A stretch of 33,429 nucleotides of DNA from Chloroflexota bacterium (lineage in GTDB: Bacteria; Chloroflexota; Anaerolineae; Aggregatilineales; Phototrophicaceae). The position numbers and the translations under genes were made by a program. Where the stretch lies: assembly GCA_026706395.1 (NCBI GenBank), contig JAPOYU010000165.1, positions 1 through 33,429 on the forward strand, written 5' to 3'. Below the pieces are notes generated by a model that saw only the letters and a list, made by a program, of their open reading frames with translations, did not search any database and had not been told where the DNA came from. Below, one piece after another: positions 13,244 to 25,718 of this stretch; positions within the stretch are counted from its first letter, which is position 1, and each line of letters opens with the position of its first letter.

Positions 13244-13283
13244 TTTGTCCGCAGAGCATCTGAAGATTCATAAGGAGATGAAA

Positions 13284-14588
13284 ATGCTTCGTTCACGGCT
13301 TCTTGCAATCCTAGCAGTTCTTATCATCTTGCTGTCGCTCGGCGCTGTCGCTGTGGCACAGGATGACATGGTAGAGATCGAATACTGGCAATATAACTTC
13401 GGCGCCCGCGTCGCTGCGATGGACATACTCATCGGACTATTCGAAGTGGCGAACCCGGGCATCAAGGTCGTACATAACAGCGACATTCCCTACGCCAATT
13501 TCCGCGATGAACTGGCCGCCTCCGCGCCGGCTGGCGTTGGGCCGGATGTGGTGACGCTTTTCTATGGCTGGATTCCCGCGTTTGTCGATGCCGGCTACCT
13601 GGTGCCGTTGCCGGAAGATCCGTTCAGCGAAGAGTTCGTCCTGGAGACATTCTCGCCGATGGTGGCGAATTCCAAGTTCGAAGGCAGCTATTGGGCGATA
13701 CCGACAGCGGTTCGTTCGCTGGCGCTGTTCTGGAACAAGGATATCTTCGCCGATGCCGGATTGGATCCGGAGACGCCGCCGGCCACTTTGGATGAATTGG
13801 TTGAAATGGCGATCGCGACGACGAAATACGACGGCGACGAGAGCGATATTTACAACATCGTTCAACAGGGCCATGCCCCGGCGCTTGCCGCGCAGGATCA
13901 TCACTGGTTCCGCGAGGTCCTGATCCGTCAGTACGGCGGCGCTCCCTACAGCGATGACGGGCGCACGGTGACGTACAACAGCGAAGAAGGCTGCGCGGCG
14001 TTCAGTTGGCTGGCGGCGTTCGAGACCGAGCATGTCACCGGGAGCAACGACATTCTGGATGGCGCGACCAACGCCTTCGTCAACGGCGAGACGGCATTGC
14101 ATGTCGATGGCTCCTTCCGCGTGGGCACGATCGCCAGGAACAATCCGGATCTTAACTACGGCGTGACCGAGCTGCCGGTTGGTCCCAACGGGGAACAGCA
14201 CACATTCGGCTCGTATTGGACGCATGGCATCACGCGGCGCGCCAATGACGATCCGGCGCGTTTGGAAGCGGCGGTCAAGTTCTTGCAGTTCATCACTTCT
14301 CCGCCAGCGGGAACGCTTTGGGTGAATATGGTGGGCGAGTTGCCGGCTCAAGCCACAGCGGCAGCGGACGCCGATATTATTGCCGATCCGATCCTGGGCG
14401 CATTTTCGGCGGGACTGGCTTATTCGCACGCGACCTTCTTCGTCGACGAGAGCGCGCAGCGGCAGGTCTTGATTGACGCCTTCGACAACATTCGTCTGGG
14501 CGGCATGGACCCCTGCGACGCGCTCGATGAAGCGGCGGCGGCGGAACAAGAGTTGATCGACGCTTTCTGGGCCGACCGTGGCATGTAG
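13284..14588 (+). CDS. ABC transporter extracellular substrate-binding protein (carbohydrate type, family 1)
   Basis: A 434-residue secreted binding protein. Residues 1-25 are a signal peptide (LLAILAVLIILLSLGAVAVA, cut before QDD) with no lipobox cysteine. The mature part shows the sugar-binding family pattern: VEIEYWQYNFG, LFEVANPGIKVVHNSD, GPDVVTLFYGWIPAFVDAGYL, YWAIPTAVRSLALFWNKDIF and NGETALHVDGSFRVG. The start at 13284 is chosen because AAGGAG ends six bases before it; the ATG at 13278 touches the Shine-Dalgarno, and a TTG frame from 13245 adds only polar residues. It feeds the two permeases downstream. The ligand is unknown: the fold binds sugars, sugar acids and polyols, and the nearby lyase leaves an amino-acid conjugate open. 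Confidence 0.92.
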   Translation: MLRSRLLAILAVLIILLSLGAVAVAQDDMVEIEYWQYNFGARVAAMDILIGLFEVANPGIKVVHNSDIPYANFRDELAASAPAGVGPDVVTLFYGWIPAFVDAGYLVPLPEDPFSEEFVLETFSPMVANSKFEGSYWAIPTAVRSLALFWNKDIFADAGLDPETPPATLDELVEMAIATTKYDGDESDIYNIVQQGHAPALAAQDHHWFREVLIRQYGGAPYSDDGRTVTYNSEEGCAAFSWLAAFETEHVTGSNDILDGATNAFVNGETALHVDGSFRVGTIARNNPDLNYGVTELPVGPNGEQHTFGSYWTHGITRRANDDPARLEAAVKFLQFITSPPAGTLWVNMVGELPAQATAAADADIIADPILGAFSAGLAYSHATFFVDESAQRQVLIDAFDNIRLGGMDPCDALDEAAAAEQELIDAFWADRGM

Positions 14589-20590: not shown

Positions 20591-20633
20591 CGGTTGGCCT
20601 CACTCTGCGGTTTCGAACTAATTGACTCAGGAC

Positions 20634-20670
20634 AGAAAAGCGGTTGAGGCAGCGGACATGGTTCAACCGC
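20634..20670 (-). terminator. Intrinsic terminator of the riboflavin transporter operon
   Basis: On the minus strand GCGGTTGA (20670-20663) and TCAACCGC (20647-20640) form a perfect 8-bp stem with a 15-base loop, followed directly by TTTTCTG. The stem includes the stop codon of the ATPase gene. It separates the operon from the aminotransferase start 45 bases further on. Confidence 0.7.
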
Positions 20671-21424
20671 GCTGGTCCTCAATGTAACCACGGACTTCTC
20701 TGGTCAACTGGAGGAACTCACCCTTGTATATCATCTCCGCTGATCGCGGGCGCGGCAAGTCGATCATAATGTCGGCGACCAGCGTACCAGGGCGGCGCGA
20801 CATTACAATGACGCGATCGGCAAGCAAGACCGCCTCATTGATATCATGCGTTACAAGAATGATCGTCTGTCTGGCGCGCCTGCGGAGCCGCAGAAATTCC
20901 AGGCGGAGCGATTCACGCGTTAAGGCGTCGAGCGCGGCAAAGGGTTCGTCCAGGAGCCAAACTTGCGGCTCCTGCAGAATGACGCGACCAAGGGCAACAC
21001 GCTGCGCCATCCCGCCTGACAACTCAGCCGGATAGGCGCTTTCGAAACTCTCCAGATTGAGTTGTGGCAAGAGCTTGCGCACAGTGCGGTAGCGCTCCGA
21101 CCTTGGCACACCGGCGATTTCCAAGGGTAAGGCGATGTTGTCCAACACCGTGCGCCAGGGCATGAGATTGGTATCCTGGAACATGATTGCGGCGTCGGTC
21201 AAGGGGCGCTGAATGACCAGGTCGTCACAGTAAGCAGCGCCGGCCGAGGGCTTCAGCAAACCGGCCAGCACCCGTATCAAGGTGGATTTGCCACAGCCGC
21301 TCGGACCCAGCAGGCAAACGAACTGATCATCCTCTACCAGGAAGGATATCGGGCCCAGCGCTGGAAGCAAGTCACCACTGGGACCGTGGAAGCTGACGGC
21401 GAGATCCTCCGCACGCAGTCTCAC
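20663..21424 (-). CDS. ABC transporter ATPase, NitT/TauT type, of the riboflavin-uptake operon
   Basis: A 253-residue ATP-binding subunit. Walker A is GPSGCGKST (40-48), the Q-loop is MFQDTNLMPW, the signature is ELSGGMAQRVALGR, Walker B is VWLLDEPFAALD, and the switch histidine is in VTHDINEAV. The D-loop-to-H-loop spacing and LFxALDALTRE-like wording fit the SsuB/TauB/ThiZ branch. It begins at a GTG that overlaps the stop of the binding-protein gene by four bases (GTGA), so the two are translationally coupled. With the permease and binding protein it forms a complete importer behind an FMN riboswitch. RibXY systems are named for the permease and binding protein; here the ATPase is encoded in the same operon. 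Confidence 0.9.
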   Translation of the reverse strand: MRLRAEDLAVSFHGPSGDLLPALGPISFLVEDDQFVCLLGPSGCGKSTLIRVLAGLLKPSAGAAYCDDLVIQRPLTDAAIMFQDTNLMPWRTVLDNIALPLEIAGVPRSERYRTVRKLLPQLNLESFESAYPAELSGGMAQRVALGRVILQEPQVWLLDEPFAALDALTRESLRLEFLRLRRRARQTIILVTHDINEAVLLADRVIVMSRRPGTLVADIMIDLPRPRSAEMIYKGEFLQLTREVRGYIEDQRG

Positions 21425-22554
21425 TCGTCGTTAACCGCCAGAAAATCATTGGAGAAGGCGTCGCCCAGGTCGCCGAGATCATCGCCCAACAAGTTCATTA
21501 ACGCGAGTGTATCGCGCATTGCTTCCCAGGACGCCAAGTCGCTGTATCCGAGCGCGTCGGCATCCCACAGTTCGATGGAATTCAACAGCACTTCCAATTG
21601 CGCCAAGATGCCGGCATCGAATTGCTGCCGAAGCTGAATCCGCAAGGCCTGGCGGCTCTCCACAATTTCCTCGCGCGCTGGGTGGGCGGCGAGGAATTCG
21701 CGCTGCCGTTCGCTCGCCTCAGTTAAAGCCGAGACAAAGGCATCATCGCTGGGAAGCGTATCCACATGCGGCAGACTGGCCAGGTAAGCGCCCGCCGGAT
21801 TATCAATTGTAAACCGCAATGCATGCCGAAGCGCTCCGACCATACGAGCGGTCTGTTCCGGCGCATCATTCAATTGGCTGCGACTGACGATAAGTCCGTT
21901 TGAGACCAAGTCGACTTGCGACGCGACGGTGAGCACGGCGACATCCTGGAGATCGCCACATTCACCGGCGGCAGCCAAGTTGCGTATCTGCAAGGGCTCG
22001 TTATTGGCATAGACAACGGCGGCATCAACAGCGCCGAGACAAAAGACCTCCGGGGCATTAAAGCCGATCTCATTCACTTCGATCTCGGATTCAGTCAAGC
22101 CGGCGCTGGCTAACAGCGTAGTAAGGCCACTGTAACTTGCGCCGAAACGCCCGGGAATGCCGACCCTCAGTCCACGCAACTGGCGCAAATCGCTCAGGTC
22201 CAATTCGCTCGAATAGACCAGGCCAACCGGGTATTGCTGGAACCACTCAAACACATAGACGACATCGCGTCCGCGCGACCGCGCCAGGATCACTTGCTCG
22301 CCACTGACGATGCCGTAATTCGCCTGCCCGAGCGCCACTAAATCCAGCACTTCCGGCTCCTGGAGATGTTCCAGCGATACGTCGAAGCCGGCGGCGGCAA
22401 AGATACCGTGTTGAATGCCCACATAGAAAGGGGCGAATTGAACGTTGGGAATGAACGTAAGCAGAATACGTTCTTCGGCCAAATCATCTTGCGCCGTTAC
22501 GAGCAATGTGAGTGTCAGAACAAGAAATGTGACGAACCTCTTCAGCTTGAGCAT
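21421..22554 (-). CDS. ribY: Riboflavin ABC transporter substrate-binding protein, RibY-like (NMT1/THI5 fold)
   Basis: A 377-residue exported binding protein. The signal peptide LKRFVTFLVLTLTLLVTA ends before QDD. The mature sequence is of the NMT1/THI5-like fold: LTFIPNVQFAPFYVGIQHGI, AAAGFDVSLEHL, LVALGQANYGIVSGEQVILA, LRGLRVGIPGRFGASYSGL and VDAAVVYANNEP. Relatives bind thiamine precursors, taurine or sulfonates. The FMN riboswitch upstream points to riboflavin, as in the RibXY family described by comparative genomics. A strong AGGAGGTGA (22572-22564) lies nine bases before the ATG, better than those of its neighbours and suited to high output of the binding protein. It follows the permease by 32 bases. 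Confidence 0.85.
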   Translation of the reverse strand: MLKLKRFVTFLVLTLTLLVTAQDDLAEERILLTFIPNVQFAPFYVGIQHGIFAAAGFDVSLEHLQEPEVLDLVALGQANYGIVSGEQVILARSRGRDVVYVFEWFQQYPVGLVYSSELDLSDLRQLRGLRVGIPGRFGASYSGLTTLLASAGLTESEIEVNEIGFNAPEVFCLGAVDAAVVYANNEPLQIRNLAAAGECGDLQDVAVLTVASQVDLVSNGLIVSRSQLNDAPEQTARMVGALRHALRFTIDNPAGAYLASLPHVDTLPSDDAFVSALTEASERQREFLAAHPAREEIVESRQALRIQLRQQFDAGILAQLEVLLNSIELWDADALGYSDLASWEAMRDTLALMNLLGDDLGDLGDAFSNDFLAVNDE

Positions 22555-22586
22555 GGAATATATTCACCTCCTCACGATGTTTCGAA

Positions 22587-23396
22587 TCATGATGCAGCGC
22601 GCCGCTGCCAGACCAGGAAGCGCCATTCGACAAAGGCCACCAGGCTGTACAAACTTAGAGCAATAACCGTCATGGTCAGCACTGTGACGACGACAAGGGG
22701 CGTATTGTATTGGCTGCGCGCCATGATCACCAAGACACCCAAACCGCTACCCGAACCAACGAATTCGCCTACAACCGCGCCTATCACCGCCAGAGTCGCG
22801 CTCGTCTTCAAACCGGCGAGAATAACCGGCAGCGCGGACGGCAGCTCCAAGGCGCGAAACGTGCGCCAGGGCCCGGCGTTCAAAGAGCGCATCAAATCGC
22901 GCAGGCGCGGCGATACGCTTCGAATGCCGACGATGGCGTTTACCAGCGTGGGAAAGAAGACAATGACCGCTGTGGTCACGACCTTGCTGCTCGGTCCCGT
23001 ACCGAACCAGATAATAAGCAAGGGGGCATATGCCACGATCGGCGTGGACTGGAAGGCGACAATGATCGGAGACAATACGTATTCCAGCAAAGGCGCTTTA
23101 GCAATGGCGTAACCAAGTACAAGGCCGATTCCGACGCCTAATACGAGACCGTACATCATCTCACCAAGCGTCGTCATGGTGTGCTTGGCCAGACTGCCAT
23201 CAGCAAGAGCGTCGGCGAAAGCGGCGTAAACATCAGCCGGCGCTGGAACAAGAATCGGTGAGATGATCCGCTGGTGAGTGATCCACTGCCATAGCAGAAG
23301 AAGCAGCAGAATTGTCAAGAGCGGCGACAGGCGGCGCAATGCGACTTGTCGCCTTTGCTTCGCTCGAAAATCATTATCTATGCTGGTAGTCCGCAT
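22587..23396 (-). CDS. ribX: Riboflavin ABC transporter permease, RibX-like
   Basis: A 269-residue inner-membrane permease of the NitT/TauT/ThiX type. The first helix is LSPLLTILLLLLLWQWITH. The SPILVPAPADVYAAFADAL loop and TTLGEMMYGLVLGVGIGLVL are typical of the group. The cytoplasmic EAA-type loop is LMRSLNAGPWRTFRALELPS with ALPVILAGLK after it. The start is the ATG at 23396, with GGAAG six bases upstream; the frame stays open through the riboswitch to 23660, but that extension is aptamer RNA and not protein. It is the first gene after the FMN riboswitch, so flavin level should set its expression. Assignment to riboflavin rests on the riboswitch and the operon partners. Confidence 0.88.
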   Translation of the reverse strand: MRTTSIDNDFRAKQRRQVALRRLSPLLTILLLLLLWQWITHQRIISPILVPAPADVYAAFADALADGSLAKHTMTTLGEMMYGLVLGVGIGLVLGYAIAKAPLLEYVLSPIIVAFQSTPIVAYAPLLIIWFGTGPSSKVVTTAVIVFFPTLVNAIVGIRSVSPRLRDLMRSLNAGPWRTFRALELPSALPVILAGLKTSATLAVIGAVVGEFVGSGSGLGVLVIMARSQYNTPLVVVTVLTMTVIALSLYSLVAFVEWRFLVWQRRAAS

Positions 23397-23402
23397 ATCG
23401 CG

Positions 23403-23430
23403 CTTCCAGGATTTCACAACTGAGGAAGGG
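23403..23430 (-). promoter_or_regulatory. Candidate expression platform of the FMN riboswitch over the ribX ribosome-binding site
   Basis: On the minus strand CCCTTCC (23430-23424) can pair through CTTCC with the Shine-Dalgarno GGAAG (23407-23403), closing the ribX start. The same CCCTTC is complementary over six bases to GAAGGG (23528-23523), the 3' strand of aptamer helix P1. The two pairings exclude one another, as in a translational switch. No T-run terminator was found in this leader. Confidence 0.5.
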
Positions 23431-23522
23431 CGATACGCAAAGCGAGGCACCGCAGAATTACGCGATGGACCAACGCAAAGCCGTATGTCTAACCAGGCGA
23501 GCCCCCAGTGGCGGCCTGCCAA

Positions 23523-23692
23523 CCCTTCTCCCATCCGGACTATCACCGTCGGCTCCGGAATCTCACCGGAATCCACCTGCCCAGCGTTTCGCTGAGACAC
23601 AACGCCAAACCACAGGCGATGATCAGGGTCACGGGCTTGGCATGCCGCAGCATGCATCACCGCCGGTAGGGACTTTCACCCTGCCCCGAAGG
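23523..23692 (-). promoter_or_regulatory. FMN riboswitch (RFN element)
   Basis: About 170 nt on the minus strand carry the RFN consensus in order: CTTCGGGGCAGGGTGAAAGT, CCCTACCGGCGGTGATG, a variable hairpin GCATGC-TGCG-GCATGC, AAGCCCGTGA, a second variable hairpin CAGCGAAACGCTG, GGTGAGATTCCGGAGCCGAC, GGTGATAGTCCGGATGGGAG, and the closing GAAGG. P1 forms between CAACCTTC and GAAGGGTTG with one bulged G. The aptamer binds flavin mononucleotide and normally turns expression off when FMN is plentiful. It heads the ribX-ribY-ATPase operon, 126 bases before the ribX ATG. Recognition is from sequence pattern only, but it is strong. Confidence 0.95.
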
Positions 23693-23716
23693 TTGGTTCA
23701 GATTTACACTGCGGCA

Positions 23717-23744
23717 AGTATATCAAAACTTAAGAGGAATTCAA
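23717..23744 (-). promoter_or_regulatory. Promoter of the riboswitch-controlled ribX operon
   Basis: On the minus strand TTGAAT (23744-23739) and TATACT (23722-23717) are 16 bases apart, with TG in the extended -10 position (TGaTATACT). Transcription would begin near 23710, about 18 bases before the aptamer. It fits in the 60-base gap after the histidine kinase stop. Confidence 0.6.
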
Positions 23745-23752
23745 TCAGAAGC

Positions 23753-25012
23753 CTAGAGCGGCGCAACCGACTGAGGCAGCTCCAGCGCCGGCTCATCTTC
23801 AGACTGCTCCGCGCTTGGCTGCTGGAAGTCCGCATCAGCTTTGAGCACGCTGAAGACAAATTTCCCTCCGATGCCTTGGCTGTTGCCTTCAGCCCAAATG
23901 CGCCCGCCATGCGCTTCGACGATGTGTTTGCAAATGGCGAGGCCCAAGCCGGTTCCTTCGTCGCCGGAGCGCGAGACATCCGCCTGGTAGAATCGCTCAA
24001 AAATACGCTCGCGAACATCGTCGGGCACGCCGGGACCGTTATCAAACACTGTAACTACGATTTCTTCCTCGATTTCGGCGGCGGTAATCGTGATGGCATC
24101 ATCCGCGGGCGACCACTTGATTGCATTGTGCAGCAGATTGCCCAGGACCCGCCGCAACTGGTCGGCGTCGCACAGGACATCAAGATTCTGTGGCACGTGG
24201 CTGACGATTGTAAGATTCTTTGTCTGGGCCTGCGATTCCAGCCGCTCGATCGCATCGTCTATGACTTGCTTCAATGGGGTCTTCACCAGACGCAGAATGG
24301 CCTCGCCCGATTCAATCATGGACAGGTCGAGCAGCTCCTGAGCCAGCCATAGCAGCGAGTCGGTCTCCATTGCGATTTCCTTGAGCGATTGAATGCTGGC
24401 CTTCCGCTTTGGTTTATCGGCGTCAAGGAAAAGACCTTCAATAATCAGGCGGATCCGTGTAATCGGCGTTCGCAATTCGTGCGAGATATTGGCGACCAGG
24501 TCGCGCCGGGCGCGGTTAAGCTGCACCAGGTCGGTAATGTCGCGCATGACAATGCCAACGCAAACAGCTCCCCCAAGATAATCGATAGCCAGGGCACGAA
24601 CTCGATAGTTGGAGCTGCCAATTAGGAATTGCTCCTCGAGCCGCTCGCTTTCTCGCTGGGCCATGGCGACCAAGCTGATAAGCTCAGGCGACTCAATTAC
24701 CTGCGAAAGTGCTTTGCCTATGGCAGATTCATCGGTGATAAGGCGGGCAGCTGACTGATTCAGGGCGAGTATATTCTGATCGGCATCAAGCAAAAACATT
24801 AGATCAAAGGAGATATGATCCGCAGCGGAAACGAGCCCCTGATGCAAGAGCTGTTTACGTTCGCTCTCGTTGAGTTGAGCGCGAAGATGGCCGATTTCTT
24901 CGGCTTGACCACGTACGGTCGAGTTGGCCGCATGCAAGCGCCGGCTCTGATTGTAAGCAACACTGCCCATGCCAAGCAAGGAGACAATCAAGAGTGTCAG
25001 CAGAACTTCCAC
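23753..25012 (-). CDS. Sensor histidine kinase, PhoR-like
   Basis: A 419-residue membrane kinase that phosphorylates the response regulator encoded just upstream. One N-terminal helix (LLTLLIVSLLGMGSVAY) is followed by a short coil (30-55) and a PAS domain (about 62-165, MFLLDADQNILALNQSAARL). The HisKA dimerisation helix carries phospho-acceptor His178 in NISHELRTPI. ATPase boxes follow: N box NLLHNAIKWSP (292-302), G1 DNGPGVPD (324-331), F box FERFYQ and G2 GTGLGLAI (353-360). There is no periplasmic sensor loop, so the signal is probably internal or at the membrane. The start is a GTG one base after the regulator's stop, showing tight coupling. The inducing signal cannot be read. Confidence 0.94.
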   Translation of the reverse strand: MEVLLTLLIVSLLGMGSVAYNQSRRLHAANSTVRGQAEEIGHLRAQLNESERKQLLHQGLVSAADHISFDLMFLLDADQNILALNQSAARLITDESAIGKALSQVIESPELISLVAMAQRESERLEEQFLIGSSNYRVRALAIDYLGGAVCVGIVMRDITDLVQLNRARRDLVANISHELRTPITRIRLIIEGLFLDADKPKRKASIQSLKEIAMETDSLLWLAQELLDLSMIESGEAILRLVKTPLKQVIDDAIERLESQAQTKNLTIVSHVPQNLDVLCDADQLRRVLGNLLHNAIKWSPADDAITITAAEIEEEIVVTVFDNGPGVPDDVRERIFERFYQADVSRSGDEGTGLGLAICKHIVEAHGGRIWAEGNSQGIGGKFVFSVLKADADFQQPSAEQSEDEPALELPQSVAPL

Positions 25013-25013
25013 A

Positions 25014-25718
25014 TCAGCCCTCGAATCTGTAACCGACGCCGCGGACTGTGCTTATGCGCTCCGGTTTTGATGGGTTGTCTTCGATCTTTTCACGCAGCCA
25101 GCGGATGTGGACATCAACCGTACGTTTGTCACTCGCGCCTATCAGGTAGTCTTCACCCCAAACGTTAGCAATAAGAAAGTCGCGCGAGAGGACTGCTCGT
25201 TGGTTGCGCATAAATACGGCGAGCAGGGTGTATTCCTTGTTGGTGAGCTTAACTTCATTCTCGCCTTTGAATACGCGTCTTCCAGTGAGGTCGAGGCGCA
25301 GATCGCCCGAGGAAAGTTCATCTCGCTTCAATCCGGTTTCCGGCGCAGGTCGGCGCATCTGCACGCGCACACGCGCCAGGAACTCGCCCAAGCCAAAGGG
25401 CTTGACGATGTAGTCATTGGCGCCGCTCTCCAAACCTAAGATTTTGTCATTTTCGGTGCCGCGGGCCGTCAGCATGATGACCGGCACACTTGATGTCTTA
25501 CTGTCGTTGCGGATCATGCGACAAAGGCTGACACCGTCGAGACCAGGCAACATAATGTCCAACACGATTAAATCGTAACTGGCGCTGCGCGCCATGTTCA
25601 AACCGGTCTCGCCATCAAACGCGGTGAAGACATCATAACCTTCAGCGCGCAAGTTATCAGCCAGTTTGCTAATCACTCTTTCGTCGTCTTCAACGACCAG
25701 AATCTTTTTAGCCACCAT
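25014..25718 (-). CDS. Response regulator, OmpR/PhoB family
   Basis: A 234-residue transcription factor. The receiver domain (1-120) has the acidic pair Asp11-Asp12 (VVEDDE), phospho-acceptor Asp54 (IVLDIMLPGLDG), Thr84 (IMLTARG) and Lys106 (YIVKPFGLGE). A winged-helix domain follows (about 135-234), with LTNKEYTLLAVFMRNQ, VWGEDYLIGASDKRTVDVHI and the final STVRGVGYRFEG, the standard OmpR/PhoB ending. It is the first gene of the pair with the histidine kinase. No target site could be assigned; the operon following the kinase, ribXY, already has its own promoter and riboswitch. Confidence 0.95.
   Translation of the reverse strand: MVAKKILVVEDDERVISKLADNLRAEGYDVFTAFDGETGLNMARSASYDLIVLDIMLPGLDGVSLCRMIRNDSKTSSVPVIMLTARGTENDKILGLESGANDYIVKPFGLGEFLARVRVQMRRPAPETGLKRDELSSGDLRLDLTGRRVFKGENEVKLTNKEYTLLAVFMRNQRAVLSRDFLIANVWGEDYLIGASDKRTVDVHIRWLREKIEDNPSKPERISTVRGVGYRFEG

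Follow-up and report, generated by a model that had tools for sequence, protein, structure and literature searches.

A candidate riboflavin importer locus, RibXYZ, behind an FMN riboswitch in a Chloroflexota bacterium

The contig JAPOYU010000165.1 of a Chloroflexota bacterium (assembly GCA_026706395.1; its 33,429 nucleotides, analyzed as a whole, are referred to below as the window) contains a locus that we interpret as a riboflavin importer, RibXYZ, preceded by a flavin mononucleotide (FMN) riboswitch. On the minus strand, from position 23744 to 20633, lie in order a sigma-70-like promoter, the aptamer of the riboswitch, the three genes and finally a hairpin, and the coordinates of all these elements are given on that strand. 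The aptamer (RFN element, RF00050; 23697-23519) matches the Rfam model over its full length (model positions 1-138) with 95.7 bits, compared with a gathering score of 66.2, and an E value of 4.2e-21. An earlier note, made from the letters of the DNA alone, had proposed an RFN element on this strand and a search with the Rfam model, which bore the proposal out. RF00050 was the sole Rfam match of the window at gathering thresholds, and no thiamin pyrophosphate (TPP) riboswitch was detected there at these thresholds. Judging from its match to the model, the leader RNA probably senses FMN.

The first gene, ribX (23396-22587), encodes a permease of 269 amino acids (BPD_transp_1, PF00528, 103.7 bits) that is 41% identical to RibX of Chloroflexus aurantiacus over 237 residues. 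Its likely start is the ATG at 23396, with GGAAG six bases 5' of it, and the reading frame stays open further 5' into the aptamer (GTG at 23660). The second gene, ribY (22554-21421), encodes an NMT1/THI5-like substrate-binding protein of 377 amino acids (NMT1, PF09084, 110.4 bits), which has a signal-like start without a lipobox, and the third, ribZ (21424-20663), encodes an ATP-binding cassette (ABC) ATPase of 253 amino acids (ABC_tran, 97.1 bits). The two latter genes overlap by 4 bases, the GTGA at 21424-21421 being common to the ribY stop and the ribZ start. These matches and the overlap agree with the earlier description of the genes behind the aptamer as an NMT1/THI5-type ABC system with the ATPase gene coupled to ribXY.

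RibXY was predicted in 2013, as a system without an ATPase (PMC3766115), and riboflavin uptake was confirmed in 2015 by complementation with C. aurantiacus ribXY (PMC4418817). The 2015 study cites a paper reporting that RibY binds flavins, and also refers to Rodionova et al. (2014) for a ribZ ATPase gene beside ribXY in a few Chloroflexi. Thus, the earlier note was right in saying that such importers had been predicted from linkage, but the evidence had already gone beyond prediction, and the ATPase gene that it singled out does adjoin ribXY but is not new to the family. Like the C. aurantiacus locus (Caur_0816-0817; PMC4418817), the window carries an FMN riboswitch and, behind it, a permease gene and a gene for a binding protein of the NMT1 type, and the two binding proteins fall into one group. 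However, the open reading frame (ORF) after ribXY in C. aurantiacus matches AAA_21 and no ABC transporter ATPase, and C. aurantiacus RibY has a lipobox-like start (...ITACS), which the window RibY lacks. In having an ATPase gene associated with ribXY, the window resembles the Chloroflexi loci of Rodionova et al., as described in PMC4418817. Protein families and fold are also common to the ThiXYZ/THI5-type systems, from which the window system differs in its riboswitch, FMN in place of TPP, and in a RibY that branches separately from a TPP-linked paralogue. The window locus is an ordinary new case of the already known RibXY(Z) importer family.

The C. aurantiacus ribXY locus, located by means of the two published primers, which match it exactly, carries an RFN element of its own. 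In the RibY tree, a group of 42 rows with support 100/97 includes both the window and the C. aurantiacus RibY, and 15 NMT1 paralogues lie outside it. The paralogues come from eight genomes with 28 NMT1 matches, namely 8 RibY and 20 others, the five weakest of which were omitted. One outside paralogue, from the C. aurantiacus genome, has a TPP riboswitch approximately 1.1 kb upstream; it sits on a long branch and its placement is unsure, as is that of four rows flagged as long (L086, L089, L100 and L107). The RibY alignment comprised 36 chosen rows, with L031 omitted for an in-frame stop in the translated stretch, and the tree sample contained no solved thiamin-binding protein. A plasmid search returned 5 weak records, each with less than 80% coverage of the query.

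Relatives were collected by a RibY scan of genome contigs, in which the best 80 of 188 relatives corresponded to 79 loci, all with Chloroflexota titles (Chloroflexi, Anaerolineae and groups within). The loci split into 26 close (62-79% RibY identity) and 53 distant ones (30-39%). All 26 close loci hold ribX, ribY and ribZ, flanked as in the window by a downstream aminotransferase gene and an upstream two-component pair, and the 4-base overlap of ribY and ribZ recurs in 25 of them, with ribZ starts extrapolated from the alignment. Of the 79 loci, 58 (21 close and 37 distant) have the RFN pattern ahead of ribX; in 10 of the other 21, all distant, fewer than 300 bases were available 5' of ribX or ribX was missing. 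At the level of whole genomes, RF00050 scored above its cut-off in 33/40 and 24/39 genomes of two sets.

The check for riboflavin synthesis genes that the earlier note had suggested was run in the 26 close genomes. RibH (PF00885), RibB (PF00926), RibE (PF00677) and RibA (PF00925) each had no match in any of them, and riboflavin kinase, RibF (PF01687), was present in all 26. In 14 control genomes, RibH and RibB were each found in all 14, RibE in 11 and RibA in 10. The loss of four families in every close genome, with RibF kept throughout, is unlike random draft incompleteness (completeness values of the drafts are not given). Of 50 distant genomes tested, leaving aside L077-L079, one carried RibH. 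Across 201 genomes drawn from the phylum Chloroflexota, RibH occurred in 127, among them 2 of the 25 with the best RibY matches (Fisher p 1e-9; the p value ignores kinship, and the limit of the band, E 1e-103, was set after seeing the scores). The successively weaker RibY bands had RibH in 21/27, 4/15 and 1/11 genomes, compared with 99/123 of those without a RibY match. Since weaker RibY matches do co-occur with RibH, the link between the importer and missing synthesis holds for part of the family. In favour of the riboflavin reading, 5 of the 201 genomes have ribY and ribH on the same contig, 4.2-4.8 kb apart. In the close relatives, where riboflavin synthesis genes were not found, the importer is therefore probably the main or only source of riboflavin, and by extension from their genomes the source organism would be an auxotroph as well. 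Thus, the central claim of the earlier note, an FMN-riboswitch RibXY-type importer with its own ATPase, holds up on the Rfam match, the grouping with C. aurantiacus RibY and the lack of the four synthesis families in the 26 closest genomes.

Between the aptamer and ribX, the leader contains two mutually exclusive pairing options. GAAGGG (23528-23523), the 3' strand of aptamer helix P1, has an alternative partner in CCCTTC (23430-23425), with which it forms an anti-sequestor. Folding and the leader alignment identify TATCGCCCTTCC (23435-23424) as the 5' arm of a hairpin that sequesters the ribosome-binding site; the 3' arm, GGAAGCGCGATA (23407-23396), includes the ribX Shine-Dalgarno sequence (GGAAG, 23407-23403) and ends at the A of the ATG. 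The alignment had 21 rows: the window itself plus 20 close loci that carry the riboswitch, the twenty-first such locus, L025, being omitted for its divergent leader. A hairpin of the type UCGCCCUUCC...GGAAGGGCGA-AUG directly before ribX buries the Shine-Dalgarno sequence, and 85.3% of its alignment cells are paired, compared with 40-54% when the partners are slid. The 3' strand of P1 reads GAAGG in 21/21 leaders and GAAGGG in 18, and all six pairs of GAAGGG/CCCUUC can form in 15. Under forced folding, the mean free fraction of the Shine-Dalgarno sequence was 0.00-0.41 with P1 and 0.12-0.65 with the anti-sequestor, being higher in the anti-sequestor state in 20 of the 21 leaders. FMN riboswitches that act on translation follow such a sequestor/anti-sequestor logic around the Shine-Dalgarno sequence, and the window leader, likened to them by description, offers nothing new in principle. 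Judging from the conserved sequestor, the switch probably controls translation, masking the site at which ribosomes bind ahead of ribX.

In the resulting scheme, set in an uncultured, Anaerolineae-like Chloroflexota bacterium, RibY, located outside the cytoplasmic membrane, would capture riboflavin (perhaps FMN too), RibX would carry riboflavin across the membrane and RibZ would provide ATP hydrolysis. Riboflavin kinase would turn the imported riboflavin into FMN, the binding of which to the leader RNA would lower expression of the operon. With FMN bound, P1 would keep GAAGGG, leaving CGCCCUUCC free to pair with the Shine-Dalgarno GGAAG and block translation; when FMN is scarce, GAAGGG would instead pair with CCCUUC, exposing the Shine-Dalgarno sequence. 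The substrate of RibY, the direction of control and co-transcription enter this scheme as predictions from sequence. As a whole, a riboflavin importer with FMN-riboswitch-controlled translation is in our judgment a very likely explanation of the locus.

Several observations weigh against it. At 29%, the identity of RibY to its C. aurantiacus counterpart falls short of the first cut-off used in the 2015 study (38%; PMC4418817), a threshold of similarity rather than mechanism that, by the account in that paper, was adjusted for some families. The nearest solved structures found by a PDB sequence search and by fold searches bind thiamin or its pyrimidine, and none of them is a riboflavin binder. 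Eleven of the 79 loci (5 close, 6 distant) have sequence ahead of ribX yet no RFN pattern. In the leaders, the anti-sequestor contains one mismatch in 6 of the 21, the sequestor hairpin of the window itself has one C-C mismatch, and the sequestor shows modest covariation, with two-sided changes at 3 pairs, a number that 133/500 shuffles reach. Taken by itself, the 3' leader does not exceed shuffled sequence in stability (z 0.47). Without ligand, P1 is computed to be more stable than the anti-sequestor in 8 of the 21 leaders, including the window, where the difference is approximately 6 kcal/mol; a simple equilibrium switch is therefore not demonstrated.

The structural neighbours bring up a different substrate, thiamin or a thiamin precursor, imported by a ThiXYZ/THI5-like system that would have an FMN riboswitch by chance or through cross-regulation. 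RibY does belong to the NMT1/THI5 family, and in structure it comes closest to 3ix1 (formyl-aminopyrimidine), 4nmy (thiamin) and Thi5. These matches are neutral on flavin binding, neither supporting nor excluding it, whereas the placement of RibY beside its C. aurantiacus counterpart and away from the TPP-linked paralogue (itself a long branch of unsure position), the recurrence of the RFN pattern ahead of ribX and the missing synthesis families in the close genomes all speak against thiamin, which we regard as a highly improbable substrate. The leader in itself argues for FMN sensing alone and would also suit an importer of some other flavin or flavin-like compound (FMN, flavin adenine dinucleotide (FAD), lumichrome or roseoflavin); the RibY clade is divergent, and residues 274-317 form a 44-residue insertion, present in 18/18 close alignment rows and missing from at least 17 of the 18 distant ones. 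However, C. aurantiacus RibXY enabled a riboflavin auxotroph to grow again when riboflavin was low, and riboflavin kinase is kept in the close genomes, as expected if riboflavin is what enters, so that such another compound as the substrate appears very improbable. A sulfonate/taurine importer (SsuABC/TauABC) was dropped from consideration, all scores being below the NCBIfam curated cut-offs (SsuA_fam, 32.5 vs 163.5; TauC, 101.1 vs 342; taurine ATPase, 197.4 vs 357).

The importer could also be the same while its riboswitch terminates transcription instead of masking the ribosome-binding site. Strong terminator-like hairpins with a T run are present in 29 of 36 distant leaders, compared with 3.5 expected from shuffles, and a looser scan finds hairpins in 7 of the 21 close leaders versus 3.2 expected, a further count against translational control. 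The strong hairpins, however, occur in just 1 of the 21 close leaders (L011), with 1.2 expected, none was found in the window leader by either the strict or the looser scan, and the close leaders conserve the sequestor in place of hairpins; we thus consider termination unlikely for the window and favour control of translation. Given this distribution of strong hairpins, a change of expression platform seems to have taken place among these relatives, with terminator-like hairpins in the distant ones and the sequestor in the close ones.

The five close loci that lack the RFN pattern (L016, L017, L019, L020 and L022) show no RFN element even at E values up to 1. Just 153-193 bases separate the stop of the upstream kinase gene from the start of the ribX alignment in these loci; a promoter-like TTGAAYC...TACACT remains, as judged by eye, and ribXYZ is kept. 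L016, L017, L019 and L020 form one clade nested among riboswitch-bearing RibY rows (L022 was outside the tree sample), and the switch was therefore probably lost once. The apparent single loss occurs in genomes without detected riboflavin synthesis. In the accessible parts of the literature, we found no description of two expression platforms or of switch loss in the RibXY family, which is no proof of absence.

The elements that had been taken to frame the operon fared unevenly. The promoter-like TTGAAT-16-TATACT (23744-23717), with TG before the -10 hexamer and 9/12 consensus matches, is present as proposed, and its TG and -10 hexamer either do not vary or are conserved to at least 90% across the 21 aligned leaders, but the scanned region held 2 such matches with 1.4 expected by chance. 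The hairpin after ribZ (GCGGTTGA/TCAACCGC followed by TTTTCTG; 20633-20670; -13.7 kcal/mol for 60 bases), a possible weak terminator, has an 8-bp stem (20640-20647 with 20663-20670) that overlaps the ribZ stop; its loop exceeds the limit of 8 of the promoter/terminator scan, which omits it. This hairpin is real and without conservation: by eye, it was found in none of the 26 closest loci within 75 bases past the stop, and a further scan detected a hairpin with a T-rich tail in one of these loci (L011). The terminator is accordingly a weak element, and the claim of an operon sealed by it is unsupported, a class-V aminotransferase gene (20590-19340) beginning 72 bases after ribZ on the same strand. 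Such a gene follows ribZ within 400 bases on the same strand in 25 of the 26 close loci. Directly upstream of the locus are genes for a two-component kinase and response regulator (23753-25718), a pair found in 26/26 close loci and in none of the sequence available for most distant loci. Elsewhere in the window, 44-2524 holds a FakA-like C-terminal ORF followed by two tandem DegV-family genes, the DegV match of the second ORF starting just past the end of the first.

The binding proteins of the close clade also differ from those of the distant relatives in their anchoring. RibY shows no lipobox in any of the 26 close loci, whereas the pattern is present in 43 of the 53 distant loci, where one start (L053) is unreadable and several remaining rows also have a lipobox by eye; counting against this finding, the pattern was matched by 2 of 120 listed protein relatives. 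Among sugar-binding proteins, for which a wider lipobox pattern was used, none of 15 sampled from three close genomes (14 readable) has a lipobox, compared with 6 of the 8 that were read in three distant genomes. Of the 30 loci in this set, 24 could be mapped and 23 were read; L128 lay out of frame, the sequence of L124 was too short, and the stretches of L123 and L141 start past the signal. The sugar-binding protein of the window itself (13245-14588) has no lipobox. Thus, the missing lipid anchor extends beyond RibY to other binding proteins of the close clade, which suggests that this clade holds its binding proteins outside the cell in a different way. A cytochrome-like protein (18855-18064) has an LAGC lipobox-like stretch, so that lipoprotein sorting may still be possible. 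The close-clade binding proteins (window 21421-22554 and 13245-14588; L001-L026; the sampled L114-L140) have signal-like starts that often end in ...AQ. SBP_bac_1 matches number 66-68 per genome in L001, L003 and L012 and 8-22 in three distant relatives; the former figure is a large investment in ABC uptake.

Some of the 26 close genomes presumably come from sponges, to go by their isolate names. In a 2018 study of sponge-associated Chloroflexi, the accessible text places riboflavin-synthesis genes solely in SAR202 genomes and riboflavin-activating enzymes across all three classes; for Anaerolineae and Caldilineae it mentions a thiamin importer and no riboflavin importer (PMC6306507). We tentatively picture an uncultured Chloroflexota lineage without riboflavin synthesis that relies on a single importer, one branch of which deleted the riboswitch and kept promoter and operon, leaving scavenging always on, and the binding proteins of which turned from lipid-anchored to freely exported; this combined scenario is possible but we would not expect all of it to hold. 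If it were true, the freely exported binding proteins would need an outer layer or space that holds them. More generally, RibXY(Z) is a family in which one aptamer seems to drive two types of expression platform, and one branch of which seems to have lost this aptamer. If the close genomes do belong to the sponge-associated group of Chloroflexi, the operon would be the likely entry route for vitamin B2, and B2 dependence between members of the community would become directly testable.

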